From: Isosphaera sp.
GTDB lineage: Bacteria > Planctomycetota > Planctomycetia > Gemmatales > Gemmataceae
DNA: 60,381 nt
Direction of reading: 5' to 3'
Assembly (NCBI GenBank): GCA_013822345.1
Contig: PNKH01000040.1
Span: forward strand, 1-60,381
The notes beneath the pieces were generated by a model. That model was not told the origin of the DNA. It worked only from the letters and a program-made list of their open reading frames with translations, and did not search any database. Below, piece after piece: positions 37,890 through 59,601 of this stretch; positions within the stretch are counted from its first letter, which is position 1, and every line of letters begins with the position of its first letter. The position numbers and the translations under genes were made by a program.

Positions 37890-37947
37890 GGGAGGGCGAG
37901 GCTCCCGCCGAGCCGGGGCGAAGGCTCGGCGGGAGCCTCGCCCTCCC
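37890..37947. repeat. Family B (REP-like) palindrome, copy at 37.9 kb
   Basis: Arms 37890-37914 and 37923-37947, 25 bp perfect, 8-base loop. Unit GGGAGGGCGAGGCTC, variable CCGCC, then GAGCC; GGCTC and GAGCC also pair inside one unit. It starts 83 bases upstream of the nitrilase start and ends 9 bases from the stop of the WD40 gene at 37,957. Same family as 39,852, 54,461 and the clusters around 57,832. Confidence 0.85.
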
Positions 37948-39851: not shown

Positions 39852-39911
39852 CGGGAGGGCGAGGCTCCCGCCGAGCCGAGGCGTAGGCTCGGCGGGAGCC
39901 TCGCCCTCCCG
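39852..39911. repeat. Family B (REP-like) palindrome, copy at 39.9 kb
   Basis: Arms 39852-39877 and 39886-39911, 26 bp perfect, 8-base loop, same unit as 37,890 (CCGCC variant in both arms). It begins 46 bases upstream of the WD40 start and ends 31 bases after the stop of the PPC-domain gene. Confidence 0.85.
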
Positions 39912-54460: not shown

Positions 54461-54519
54461 GGGAGGGCGAGGCTCCTGCCGAGCCGGAGCCCCCGGCTCG
54501 GCAGGAGCCTCGCCCTCCC
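54461..54519. repeat. Family B (REP-like) palindrome, copy at 54.5 kb
   Basis: Arms 54461-54487 and 54493-54519, 27 bp perfect, 5-base loop. Same unit as 37,890, but the loop bases are CTGCC and the other arm has the matching GGCAG, so the change is compensated. It begins 6 bases after the vWA stop. Confidence 0.85.
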
Positions 54520-56269: not shown

Positions 56270-56360
56270 TCGGGGGTGTCGGGTATCGGGTATCGGACAA
56301 ACCCGGAACCTGCACCCCGTCTTCCCGACATCCGGTATACCCGATACCCGACACCCCCGA
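56270..56360. repeat. 24-bp inverted repeat between the DUF1549 and DUF1501 genes
   Basis: Arms 56270-56293 and 56337-56360, 24 bp perfect, made of GGGTATC repeats (TCGGGGGTGTCGGGTATCGG), 43-base spacer. It begins 12 bases after the DUF1549 stop and ends 17 before the DUF1501 start, inside a likely operon. Confidence 0.75.
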
Positions 56361-56377
56361 CTCCCGCCGAGCACGCC

Positions 56378-57634
56378 ATGCACGCCGCCGCACACCTCTC
56401 CCGCCGGGCGCTCCTGAAGGGGGCCGCGGTCACCGGGTCCGGCCTGGTCCTGCCGAACTGGGGCGGGCTTGCCCACGCCCGGGCCGCCGCCGAGGCCGCG
56501 ACCAAGGCCAAGAAGCGGTGCATCCTGCTGTGGATGAACGGCGGGGCGAGCCAGCTCGACACGTTCGACCTGAAGCCCGGCCGGCCGACCGGCGGGCCGT
56601 TCCGGCCGGTCCCGTCCAAGGTCGCCGGGATGCCGGTGTGCGAGTACCTGCCGAAGGTGGCCGGCCACGCCGACAAGCTGGCGGTCGTCCGGAGTCTGAA
56701 GACGGAGTCTCCGGACCACCCGGACGGCATCTACCACATGCACACCTGCTACAAGATGAGCGAGCGGACCCCGCACCCGGAGCTCGGGGCGGTGATCGCC
56801 CGGTACAACGGCAACCCGGACGCCGACCTGCCGACGTTCGTCCGGATGGGGCCGTGCGGGAACGGCGGGGCCGGGTACCTGGGGCCGGCCCACGAGCCGT
56901 TCTCCATCGACCGGACCGGCCGGCTCCCGAACTTCTCCGGGTCGTACCTCACCCCCGAGGCCGAGGACCGGCGGGCGGAGCTGTTCCGGTCGGTCGAGAA
57001 GGAGTTCGCCGCGGGCCACGACGCGACCGTCTTCCAGAGCCACCGGACGGCGAAGGAGCGGGCCTGGCGGCTGCTCCGGGCGAAGGGGGTGTTCGACATC
57101 ACGAAGGAGTGGGCGGGGGCGAAGGAGCGGTACGGCGACACCGGGTTCGGCCGCGGGTGCCTGCTCGCCCGGAAGCTGGTGGAGGCGGGGGTACCGTTCG
57201 TGGAGGTGGGGCAGGACAACTACGACAGCCACGGGGACAACTTCGTTATCCACAAGGCGAACCTGCAGGTGCTGGACCCGGCGTGGAGCGCCCTGCTGGC
57301 CGACCTCGCCGACCGCGGGCAGTTGCAGGACACGCTGGTGATCTGGATGGGGGAGGTGGGGCGGACGCCGAGCATCAACAACCGGGCGGGCCGGGACCAC
57401 TACGTCCGGGCGTGGACGGTGGTACTGGCCGGCGGCGGGATCAAGGGCGGGCAGGTGTACGGCTCGACGGACGCGGACGGCCGGGACGTGAAGGACGGGC
57501 TGGTGACCGAGGGCGACCTGTTCGCGACGGTGTACGCGGCTTTGGGGATCAACCACCGGGCGAAGCACTACCACGGGGTGCGGCCGATCTGGCTGACGCC
57601 CGAGGGGGCGAAGCCGGTGCAGGCGCTGCTGTGA
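56378..57634 (+). CDS. DUF1501 protein, second copy
   Basis: 418 residues from ATG 56378, start of the leader HAAAHLSRRALLKGAAVTGS (twin-arginine). Family landmarks: LLWMNGGASQLDTFDLKPGR, EVGQDNYDSHGDNFVIHKAN, VIWMGEVGRTPSINNRAGRD. The earlier codons in this frame are translation of the repeat before it. It should work with the DUF1549 gene just upstream; DUF1549/DUF1501 pairs are the usual planctomycete arrangement. The repeat cluster begins 3 bases after its stop. Confidence 0.9.
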   Translation: MHAAAHLSRRALLKGAAVTGSGLVLPNWGGLAHARAAAEAATKAKKRCILLWMNGGASQLDTFDLKPGRPTGGPFRPVPSKVAGMPVCEYLPKVAGHADKLAVVRSLKTESPDHPDGIYHMHTCYKMSERTPHPELGAVIARYNGNPDADLPTFVRMGPCGNGGAGYLGPAHEPFSIDRTGRLPNFSGSYLTPEAEDRRAELFRSVEKEFAAGHDATVFQSHRTAKERAWRLLRAKGVFDITKEWAGAKERYGDTGFGRGCLLARKLVEAGVPFVEVGQDNYDSHGDNFVIHKANLQVLDPAWSALLADLADRGQLQDTLVIWMGEVGRTPSINNRAGRDHYVRAWTVVLAGGGIKGGQVYGSTDADGRDVKDGLVTEGDLFATVYAALGINHRAKHYHGVRPIWLTPEGAKPVQALL

Positions 57635-57637
57635 CGG

Positions 57638-57811
57638 CGGGAGGGCGAGGCTCCCGCCGAGCCGGGCCGCCGGGGGCGGAGGCGACGACGGCTTTTCCGG
57701 GAGGGTGAGGCTCCGGCCGAGCCGGGGCGGATTTGGGAGGGCGAGGCTCCGGCCGAGCCGTCTTCGCCCCCACACACAACACTCGGCTCGGCGGGAGCCT
57801 CGCCCTCCCGG
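57638..57811. repeat. Family B cluster, left of the RAYT gene (four units)
   Basis: Units at 57638-57666, 57697-57727 and 57735-57760 run in the plus sense, and 57784-57811 is inverted. Unit 1 and the inverted unit share the CCGCC loop; units 2 and 3 share CGGCC. It starts 3 bases after the DUF1501 stop and ends 21 bases before the RAYT ATG. Confidence 0.85.
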
Positions 57812-57831
57812 GCGCGACCAGGAACCGCACC

Positions 57832-58301
57832 ATGGACGACCAGCCGCTTCTGCCGCAGCGAAAGCACCCGGCCCACGGGGTCCTCATCGACCCCGACCGC
57901 CCCACGGTCGTGTTCCTGACGGTCTGCACGGAGGGCCGCAGGCCGTGGCTCGCGACGGCGGACAACCACGCCCTGCTCCGCGCCGTGTGGTCGGCCGCGA
58001 CCGCGTGGCGGGTCGGTCGGTACGTGCTGATGCCGGACCACCTGCACCTGTTCGCCGCCCCCGGCGAGCCCCGGTCTCGTTCGACAACTGGGTGCGGTAC
58101 TGGAAGTCGCAGTTCCGGAAGGGGCACGCGGACAAGTCGCTCCGCTGGCAGGTCGACCACTGGGACACCCGCCTCCGCCGCACCGAGAGTTACGACGAGA
58201 AGTGGGACTACGTCGTGAACAACCCCGTCCGGCACGGGCTCGTCGGCCGCGCCGGGGAGTGGCCGCACCAGGGCGAGCTCCACGAGCTGCGGTGGGACTG
58301 A
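57832..58301 (+). pseudogene. REP-associated tyrosine transposase (RAYT, Y1/HUH), frame interrupted once
   Basis: From ATG 57832 the frame reads LIDPDRPTVVFLTVCTEGRR, HALLRAVWSAATAWRVGR and YVLMPDHLHLFAAPGE, whose HLH (H70, H72) is the HUH metal-binding motif of single-stranded DNA transposases. At about 58065-58075 the natural reading moves one frame: VSFDNWVRYWKSQFRKGHAD, then ESYDEKWDYVVNNPVRHGLV, the Tyr-containing C-terminus of RAYTs, to the TGA at 58301. The region is 470 bases, one short of a multiple of three; one extra base near GAGCCCCGG would give an intact 156-residue protein. RAYTs nick and join REP palindromes. It is bracketed by four family B units on each side. Confidence 0.82.
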
Positions 58302-58306
58302 GCTCG

Positions 58307-58483
58307 CCGGGAGGGCGAGGCTCCCGCCGAGCCGGAAAGCTCGGCCGGGCCGCGGCGGCCCTGGGAGGGCGAGGCTCCGGCCGAGCCGCGCGCCCCGGCT
58401 CGGCCGGAGCCTCGCCCTCCCGGAAAGCCGTCTCCGCCCCCGCCCCCCGACGGCCCGGCTCGGCGGGAGCCTCGCCCTCCCGG
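58307..58483. repeat. Family B cluster, right of the RAYT gene (four units)
   Basis: Units 58307-58335 and 58363-58388 in the plus sense, 58395-58423 and 58455-58483 inverted. Outer units share the CCGCC loop, inner units share CGGCC, so two nested palindromes are formed, each with matched arms. It begins 5 bases after the RAYT stop and ends 23 bases before the WD40 gene. Confidence 0.85.
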
Positions 58484-58506: not shown

Positions 58507-59601
58507 ATGCCCGACTTCGCCAAGGCCGCGCTCGCCTGGACCCTGCCGTGGGACGCCGACTGGGTGACCGCGGTCGCGTTCCTCGGCCCGACGCGCCGCG
58601 TCGCCGCCGGGAACAACCGCGGCCAGATCCTCGTCTGGGAGTTGCCGGACCAGCCCGGCGGCGACCCGCCGAAGCCGGTCCTCCGGCTCGACGGCCACAC
58701 CAACGTCGTCTCGCGGCTCCTCGCCATGCCGGACGGCAAGGTGCTGGTCTCGGCGAGTTACGACCACACGGTCCGCTACTGGGACGGGGCGGCGACCGCC
58801 GAGCCGACCGAGACGGTTGCGCTGAACGCCGCCGCGGTCGCGAGCGCCAAGGCGCGGTCCGGCAAGGTGCCGGCGGCGGTCGAGGCGAAGGTCGGGGTGG
58901 TGAAGCCGGCCCGCACCCTCGACGCCCACAAGGAGTGGGTGACCGGCCTGGACCTGACGCGGGACGGCAAGTGGCTCCTCACCGGCGACGACGGCGGGCA
59001 CGTGGTCGTCTGGGACCGGGCGGCCGGCACGGTCGCGAAGCGGTGGCAGGTGAAGGGCTGGAGCTACGGGGTGGCGCTGTCGCCGGACGGGAAGCAGGCG
59101 TGCGTCGGGGAGCGGCTGCCGCTGGTGTTCGACTCCGGCCGGCACGCCGGGCTGCGGCTGTGGGACGCGACCGCGGGCACGGTGCAGCACGACCTGTCGG
59201 CGGCGTACAAGGGCCAGCACGTCGCGGCGGCGGCGTACTCGCCGGACGGGAAGCTGCTGGCGGTCGGCCGCGGCGGGGAGACGGACGCGAACGGCGGCGG
59301 GGTGGTGTCGCTGATCGACCCGGCAGGCGGGAAGAAGCTGCGGGACCTGGCCCCGGGGCACCAGTACGGGGTGACGGACCTGATGTTCCACCCGGACGGC
59401 AAGCACCTCGCGTCGGCCGGCCGCGACACGGTGGTGCGGGTCTGGGACCCGGCCGCGGGGAAGTTGGTGGCGGAGATCGGGAAGCCGCGCGGCGGGCAGT
59501 TCAAGGACTGGGTGCACGCGATCAGTTTCTCGGCCGACGGGCTGTGGATGGCGGTCGCCGACATGGCCGGGGCGGTGCAGGTGTGGCACCTCCCGGGGTG
59601 A
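58507..59601 (+). CDS. WD40 beta-propeller protein of the DUF1549 cluster
   Basis: 364 residues, no signal peptide. Begins PDFAKAALAWTLPWDADWVT. Blade ends: QILVWELPDQ, DHTVRYWDGA, HVVVWDRAAG, GLRLWDATAG, VVRVWDPAAG and VQVWHLPG. One seven-blade propeller. WD40 genes commonly follow DUF1549/DUF1501 pairs, so it is likely the third member of that cluster, now separated by the RAYT insertion. Confidence 0.85.
   Translation: MPDFAKAALAWTLPWDADWVTAVAFLGPTRRVAAGNNRGQILVWELPDQPGGDPPKPVLRLDGHTNVVSRLLAMPDGKVLVSASYDHTVRYWDGAATAEPTETVALNAAAVASAKARSGKVPAAVEAKVGVVKPARTLDAHKEWVTGLDLTRDGKWLLTGDDGGHVVVWDRAAGTVAKRWQVKGWSYGVALSPDGKQACVGERLPLVFDSGRHAGLRLWDATAGTVQHDLSAAYKGQHVAAAAYSPDGKLLAVGRGGETDANGGGVVSLIDPAGGKKLRDLAPGHQYGVTDLMFHPDGKHLASAGRDTVVRVWDPAAGKLVAEIGKPRGGQFKDWVHAISFSADGLWMAVADMAGAVQVWHLPG

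Follow-up and report, generated by a model that had tools for sequence, protein, structure and literature searches.

The window analysed here, the whole stretch of 60,381 nucleotides of contig PNKH01000040.1 from Isosphaera sp. (Gemmataceae), carries on its forward strand a DUF1501 gene (56276..57634; Pfam PF07394, 309.8 bits) and a WD40-repeat gene (58507..59601; Pfam WD40), both members of a host operon. The 872-bp gap between them is filled by a gene for a REP-associated tyrosine transposase (RAYT; 57832..58301, forward strand), which is split over two frames by a frameshift near 58060-58080, and by eight copies of a short repeat unit. This unit, GGGAGGGCGAGGCTCCNGCCGAGCC, had 14 matches in the window at up to three mismatches, against none in 100 dinucleotide-preserving shuffles. 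Eight of them flank the RAYT, four on each side, in the orientation +++- upstream (57640..57663, 57700..57723 with one mismatch and 57736..57759 on the forward strand, 57785..57808 on the reverse) and ++-- downstream (58310..58333 and 58364..58387 forward, 58397..58420 and 58457..58480 reverse). The remaining six form three inverted pairs, or REPINs, located between called genes at 37890..37947 and 39853..39910 (8-bp spacers) and at 54461..54519 (9-bp spacer). The preliminary description of this DNA was correct in placing four copies on either side of the gene, and mistaken in taking the outlying copies for simple palindromes.

Read through the break, with an X at that position, the window RAYT scored 85.8 bits against the NCBIfam model NF047646 (cut-off 80). 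The Pfam model Y1_Tnp reached 12.9 bits, under its cut-off of 23, and Pfam scans of the two halves, each taken alone, gave no match. The HUH motif DHLH (codons at 58036..58047, forward strand) and a RAYT-type Y..NP motif, YVVNNP, are both present; by the family's example, the tyrosine of the latter (58209..58211, forward strand) is presumed to be catalytic, and alignment with PDB 4er8 puts a threonine (58167..58169, forward strand) in the place of His101 of E. coli TnpAREP. The HUH half (PDHLH) and the tyrosine half lie in different frames, whereas in intact relatives they share one, and near 58060-58080 the gene differs from those relatives by net one base; this copy has probably been silenced by the frameshift. 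The profile match of the RAYT to 4er8 had an E value of 4.9e-15. An AlphaFold model of the protein of an intact relative (L061; 30 sequences, pLDDT 88.9, pTM 0.81) retrieved 4er8 as the first PDB match (E 1.8e-9, TM 0.68, rmsd 6.1 over 158 columns), followed by IS200/IS605 transposases. The family model, the motifs, the TnpAREP fold and the flanking REPs confirm the gene as a RAYT, the type of HUH transposase to which it had been assigned at the outset; the MPDHLH motif and C-terminal Tyr cited for that assignment both exist, in separate frames of a broken gene. Intact RAYTs of the same clade were found in five other Gemmataceae genomes. In its own genome (G000) the window RAYT was the only copy of its clade found, next to two distant RAYT-like matches on C49 and C14.

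The order DUF1501 then WD40 was common to all 11 genus relatives compared, with a gap of about 7-284 bp, and no RAYT was present between the two genes in any of the 11. It should be added that this comparison used DUF1501 orthologues at 75-80% identity, and that seven further members of the genus had no orthologue at the threshold used. The RAYT cassette may be an insertion into a conserved operon, or the pattern may reflect loss from the 11 relatives rather than gain here. A cassette that breaks an operon intact in 11 relatives, along with the differing gene neighbourhoods of clade RAYT genes, also fits a reading of the RAYT as an insertion sequence with the eight units as its ends and the dispersed pairs as degraded remains (MITEs).

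The unit consists of the foot GGAG followed by GGCGAGGC, the loop TCCN and GCCGAGCC, i.e. a 20-nt hairpin 5'-GGC-GA-GGC-TCCN-GCC-GA-GCC-3' with 8-nt arms, a 4-nt loop and two neighbouring G.A mismatches in tandem within the stem. The repeat of about 26 bases first reported was real, and is better defined as this 4-nt foot plus 20-nt hairpin. Within a sample of 0.84 Mb (the window and 40 genome stretches, 839,622 bases in total, with units accepted at up to three mismatches), the foot was GGAG in 59 of 60 units and GGCG in one. The unit lies outside the GTAG superfamily, in which the second foot base is a pyrimidine, as it is G here. Among relatives, the inner three base pairs covary while the G.A mismatches are kept: GGC/GCC in the window, CGC/GCG and GCC/GGC at L080, GCC/GGC at L077, GCG/CGC at L081 and AGC/GCT at L076. 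Other relatives, including L079, L083, L087, L089, L091 and L095, have perfect stems of 7-8 bp behind GGAG. Across 37 units from relatives, pairing amounted to 88.2% against 57.2% in shuffled sequences and covariation to 0.676 against 0.156, values biased by the preselection of units for pairing. An unpicked control on the RAYTs of 50 loci compared the vicinity of the gene with sequence 1.2-3 kb away. GGAGGG occurred at 5.31/kb near RAYTs (225 occurrences, 167 of them followed by a hairpin) and at 0.56/kb far from them (83 and 21), and perfect hairpins were preceded by GGAG in 68 of 164 cases near RAYTs versus 6 of 66 far away. The window unit alone, folded as single-stranded DNA, had a predicted energy of -5.0 kcal/mol and a z score of -0.29, with 75 of 200 shuffles folding as well, and we dropped its predicted stability as an argument for a hairpin; in some relatives, units with a perfect stem do fold better than shuffles (z -4.1 and -3.4). 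Both the GGAG-strand and the reverse reading of the window unit stay open, so that REPs can lie in coding frames. RAYT frames at L072, L075, L080 and L085 are extended at the N terminus by REP units read as protein (REGEAPAEP, GRARLLPSQ).

With up to two mismatches, the whole genome contained 142 forward and 138 reverse matches to the unit, 280 altogether, and none to the reversed-pattern control. The 60 units of the 0.84-Mb sample were arranged as 26 inverted pairs and the two sets of four that flank the RAYT; none stood alone in these 839,622 bases, all 52 units off the RAYT being paired. The pairs point their feet outwards, and their spacers measure 8-10 bp in 24 of 26 and 26 and 28 bp in the other two. 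The one freely varying base of the loop agrees between the arms in 26 of 26 pairs (the best of 20,000 shuffles reached 20), and the arms are identical in 22. Twelve ten-base spacers yielded 14 spacer pairs with at least 7 identities, against a shuffled mean of 0.89, a comparison from which four nine-base and two long spacers were omitted. Loop-base agreement within pairs and spacer resemblance between REPINs fit the copying of whole REPINs. This is the REP/REPIN architecture that the preliminary description had proposed, with dispersed units as short-spaced inverted pairs and a RAYT flanked by REPs, and the hundreds of paired copies for which it had called are there. In some REPINs (C5:82473, C8:51035, C5:239) the inverted repeat extends past the units, as GGTGTG...CACACC or AGTTTG...CAAACT, and the mobile element may accordingly be a few bases longer. 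An insertion sequence decaying into such pairs is very improbable, since a single clade RAYT was found in the genome against about 280 units, since the spacers of 8-10 bp are not shrunken gene remnants and since both arms are nearly always identical.

Gene calling by simple codon usage (614 genes, 82.5% coverage) placed 26 of the 28 clusters between called genes; of the other two, one fell within a called gene and the other on the edge of a contig. Judged against 417 gaps of at least 70 bp, a background not matched for length, clusters were rare between divergent genes (1/26 vs 95/417, Fisher p 0.02) and common between convergent ones (9/26 vs 60/417, p 0.01). This placement suits a host element, in which the pairs would be kept for a role in RNA as hairpins at 3' ends (terminators or mRNA stabilisers) and the RAYT would merely lie among them. 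Extragenic positions downstream of genes are, however, also the rule for REPs, as stated in the abstract of PMC3733652. Moreover, the foot is constant while lying outside the hairpin, and it varies with the type of RAYT.

Co-occurrence of unit and RAYT was followed in 95 Gemmataceae genomes, with units counted at up to one mismatch. All six genomes with the RAYT clade of the window had the unit (G000, that of the window, 274 copies; G080 306, G003 166, G073 111, G475 48, G041 4), as did 13 of the 89 without the clade, only four of which had 30 copies or more (Fisher p 3e-5, phylogeny not corrected). Equal frequency of the units in genomes lacking this clade, which had been named beforehand as evidence against the proposal, was not what we observed. 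The unit was absent from all four genomes with a sister RAYT of GTAG type (G476, G062, G037, G072), and the 13 genomes containing it were found among the 85 with neither RAYT, at counts of 157, 102, 43, 32, 22, 17, 9, 7, 6, 4, 3, 1 and 1. The unit thus persists where the clade RAYT was not found, and can be maintained without it. Some clade RAYTs may be missed in draft genomes, and the four highest counts (G065 157, G036 102, G061 43, G026 32) may represent REPIN populations outliving their transposase or RAYTs missing from the drafts. The sister unit, GTAGCCGGCCTCNNNGAGGCCGG, numbered 179 copies in G476, 55 in G062, 6 in G037 and 4 in G072, compared with 6 in G000 and 20 in G080. There is a double dissociation: G476 and G062 are rich in GTAGCCGGCCTCNNNGAGGCCGG and have no GGAG units, whereas the window's genome has 274 GGAG units and six of GTAGCCGGCCTCNNNGAGGCCGG. 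The window's genome, in which no sister RAYT was found at the threshold used, contains the sister GTAG unit in two exact copies (C12:45941 and C23:22537). Of 392 genomes of the phylum, 12 had the unit, with top counts in G000 (274) and in G151 (44), the latter likewise with a close RAYT; G424 and G364 combined a strong RAYT match with a unit count of zero, and another GGAG hairpin flanks the RAYT of G424. One genome, G041, has an intact clade RAYT with flanking units (L033, L062), yet only the four copies genome-wide. The association between unit and RAYT clade is strong and not exclusive. The persistence of units without the clade RAYT would suit the host-element explanation, which we nevertheless consider improbable, as copy number ranges from 0 to about 300 within a single family and follows the RAYT clade.

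Units also flank the intact RAYT relatives in G003, G041, G073, G080 and G475. This bears on a further alternative, in which the units are spread by another HUH transposase, such as one of the two distant RAYT-like genes on C49 and C14, with the broken RAYT as a bystander. The frameshift of the local gene and the presence of those distant genes speak for it; in relatives, however, the unit type at the RAYT flanks follows the GGAG-clade RAYT, and of all the explanations weighed here we give this one the least credence.

We consider it very probable that the locus is a REPtron, consisting of a RAYT and its cognate REP units, with a population of REPINs between the genes of the genome. The unit, its pairing, the covariation of its hairpin, the homology of the RAYT, the co-occurrence and the interruption of the operon are all read directly from sequence. 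Binding, cutting and movement of the units by the RAYT are proposed on the model of E. coli TnpAREP and of IS200/IS605. In such a scheme, the unit would fold when single-stranded, for example on the lagging-strand template, an intact RAYT of the clade would bind hairpin and foot, its HUH/Tyr centre would cut beside the unit, the foot acting as guide to the site, and the inverted pair would be moved or copied as one element. Given the probable silencing of the window RAYT, today's REPINs may be a relic, or may be maintained in some other way. As mobile DNA that is retained vertically and may be of use, REPINs and RAYTs are known mainly from gammaproteobacteria; a GGAG-footed family with a RAYT clade of its own widens their known range.

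A scan of 84,980 named species genomes gave 54 RAYT loci, 53 of which were read for feet, several by eye (L114, a match of 45 residues, stands outside the 53). They belong mainly to Planctomycetota, Verrucomicrobiota, Kiritimatiellota and Lentisphaerota, with single loci labelled Hydrogenedentota, KSB1, Myxococcota/Deltaproteobacteria, Proteobacteria and others; these labels may err, as nearly all are metagenome assemblies. Feet were GGAG at 45 loci, GGCG at one (L090) and GTAG or GTGG at seven, namely L080, L082, L085 and L101 and the more distant L102, L110 and L111. In E. coli, the residues contacting GTAG include Q95, E100, H101 and R104, according to PMC6006769 and PMC8266576, and the 4er8 alignment puts the GTAG-contact residues in the stretch W94-R104. 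The final tree had 52 RAYT rows and was built without the motif columns; it omits L101, L103, L107, L108, L112 and L113 (broken or truncated), L109 (broken and on a long branch), L115 and L116 (repeats of the L104 and L093 genes), L117 (frame unresolved), L133 (the L073 gene again) and the E. coli row. His101 was present in 11 of the 52 RAYTs, all with GTAG or GTGG feet, and the other 41 had Thr, Ser, Val or Arg at this place, with 40 GGAG feet and one GGCG. L080, L082 and L085 are nested in the GGAG clade on supported branches, and this verrucomicrobial subclade shares its hairpin with the GGAG clade, but has the foot GTAG and a RAYT with His101.

Exact genome-wide foot counts were made for 25 of the 54 loci. 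In 21 genomes with a RAYT lacking His101, the hairpin was preceded by GGAG 1,551 times and by GTAG twice (five of the 21 had neither), as opposed to once and 260 times, respectively, in three genomes with a His101 RAYT; the genome of L101, where the break in the RAYT falls at the motif, had 0 GGAG and 11 GTAG. These counts make the foot a property of the whole genome. The tree requires two changes of foot and two of His101, in step, and a sign test on independent pairs had only two pairs (p 0.5), so that the correlation between foot and residue 101 falls short of significance when descent is taken into account. Residue 101 was also ruled out as a complete code for the foot, as Arg101 accompanies GTAG at L047 and GTGG at L043, L045, L046, L050 and L059; PMC6006769 likewise mentions Arg in place of His101 in some GTAG subclasses. 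At most, His101 goes with T and Arg is permissive, and nearby positions such as Trp99 may matter for the foot. The correlation of foot and protein is a lead rather than a result. L127, with Arg101 and a foot scored as GGAG in the scan, was rejected as a second origin of GGAG: its flanking repeats, in which the hairpin follows a stretch resembling CTGGGA or CCGGGA, are those of another RAYT group. That planctomycete group with Arg101 (L040, L041, L049, L122, L123, L124, L127) has CCTGGGA-like stretches, not GTAG, before its palindromes, some of which lie inside the ends of reading frames, possibly one more type of foot.

A wider reading is plausible, if tentative, and we lean slightly against it. 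GGAG REPs would form a third large superfamily beside GTAG and CGTC, served by a RAYT clade spread over the PVC group and a few other phyla; the loop 99-101 would read the second foot base, Trp99 with Thr, Ser, Val or Arg101 specifying G and His101 specifying T, and RAYTs may follow a protein-to-guide code. As part of that same conjecture, the verrucomicrobial subclade with GTAG and His101 would amount to a natural one-base swap experiment. Matched natural pairs, with one hairpin, a foot of either GGAG or GTAG and RAYTs differing at a known contact site, turn the guide choice of RAYTs into a direct question of binding and cleavage.

As for the literature, the main text of PMC3733652 reported REPs in planctomycetes in 2013, and the phylum is thus not the new part. 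The preliminary description, which knew of no such planctomycete family as a REPIN system, has to be narrowed to the GGAG foot with its dedicated RAYT clade, which we did not find described in the main texts consulted, figures and supplements being possible places for it. GGAG is absent from the main text of PMC3733652, PMC6006769 and PMC2817692 (figures and supplements lying outside this scope), and none of the open-access papers searched contained the unit's sequence or the peptides read from it, or brought the words RAYT, REP and GGAG together. The REP/RAYT searches described in the main text of PMC6006769 used GTAG/GTGG descriptors, which would miss a GGAG family.

Several known systems come close to the one described here. 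GTAG-tagged REPs of Planctomycetes and Verrucomicrobia (R. baltica, O. terrae) share with it the PVC group and the inverted dimers, and differ in their feet, given in the main text of PMC3733652 as GTAG, GYAG, GYRG, GTRG, GTMG and GTGG, with no G in second place. Class 3 TnpA-Y1 of Planctomycetes and Acidobacteria likewise combines planctomycete HUH proteins with high-copy REP-like hairpins, but has, in the main text of PMC6006769, NHVH, Y....Q and the foot CnGA, where the window clade has DH[LI]H, Y..NP and GGAG; membership of the window RAYT in Class 3 is ruled out by its DHLH, YVVNNP and GGAG. TIRYTs and TIRtrons, too, have a RAYT-like gene and flanking repeats without GTAG, although their TIRs share GGGGWSAS (main text of PMC3733652), while the window units are foot-tagged hairpins that form REPINs. 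The sister GTAG-type RAYT of the four Gemmataceae genomes, at 35-39% protein identity and with flanking REPs, differs by His101, by its unit GTAG-CCGGCCTC-nnn-GAGGCCGG (GTGG in G072) and by the lack of GGAG units in its genomes. Finally, the system shares with the gammaproteobacterial RAYT/REP/REPIN systems (E. coli TnpAREP, Pseudomonas) the HUH-Tyr fold, with 4er8 as the best match, flanking REPs, foot-outward inverted pairs, high copy number and extragenic position; it differs from them in the foot, GGAG instead of GTAG or GTGG, in position 101, which is Thr rather than His, in a window stem with 8-nt arms and a tandem G.A mismatch, and in belonging to another phylum.
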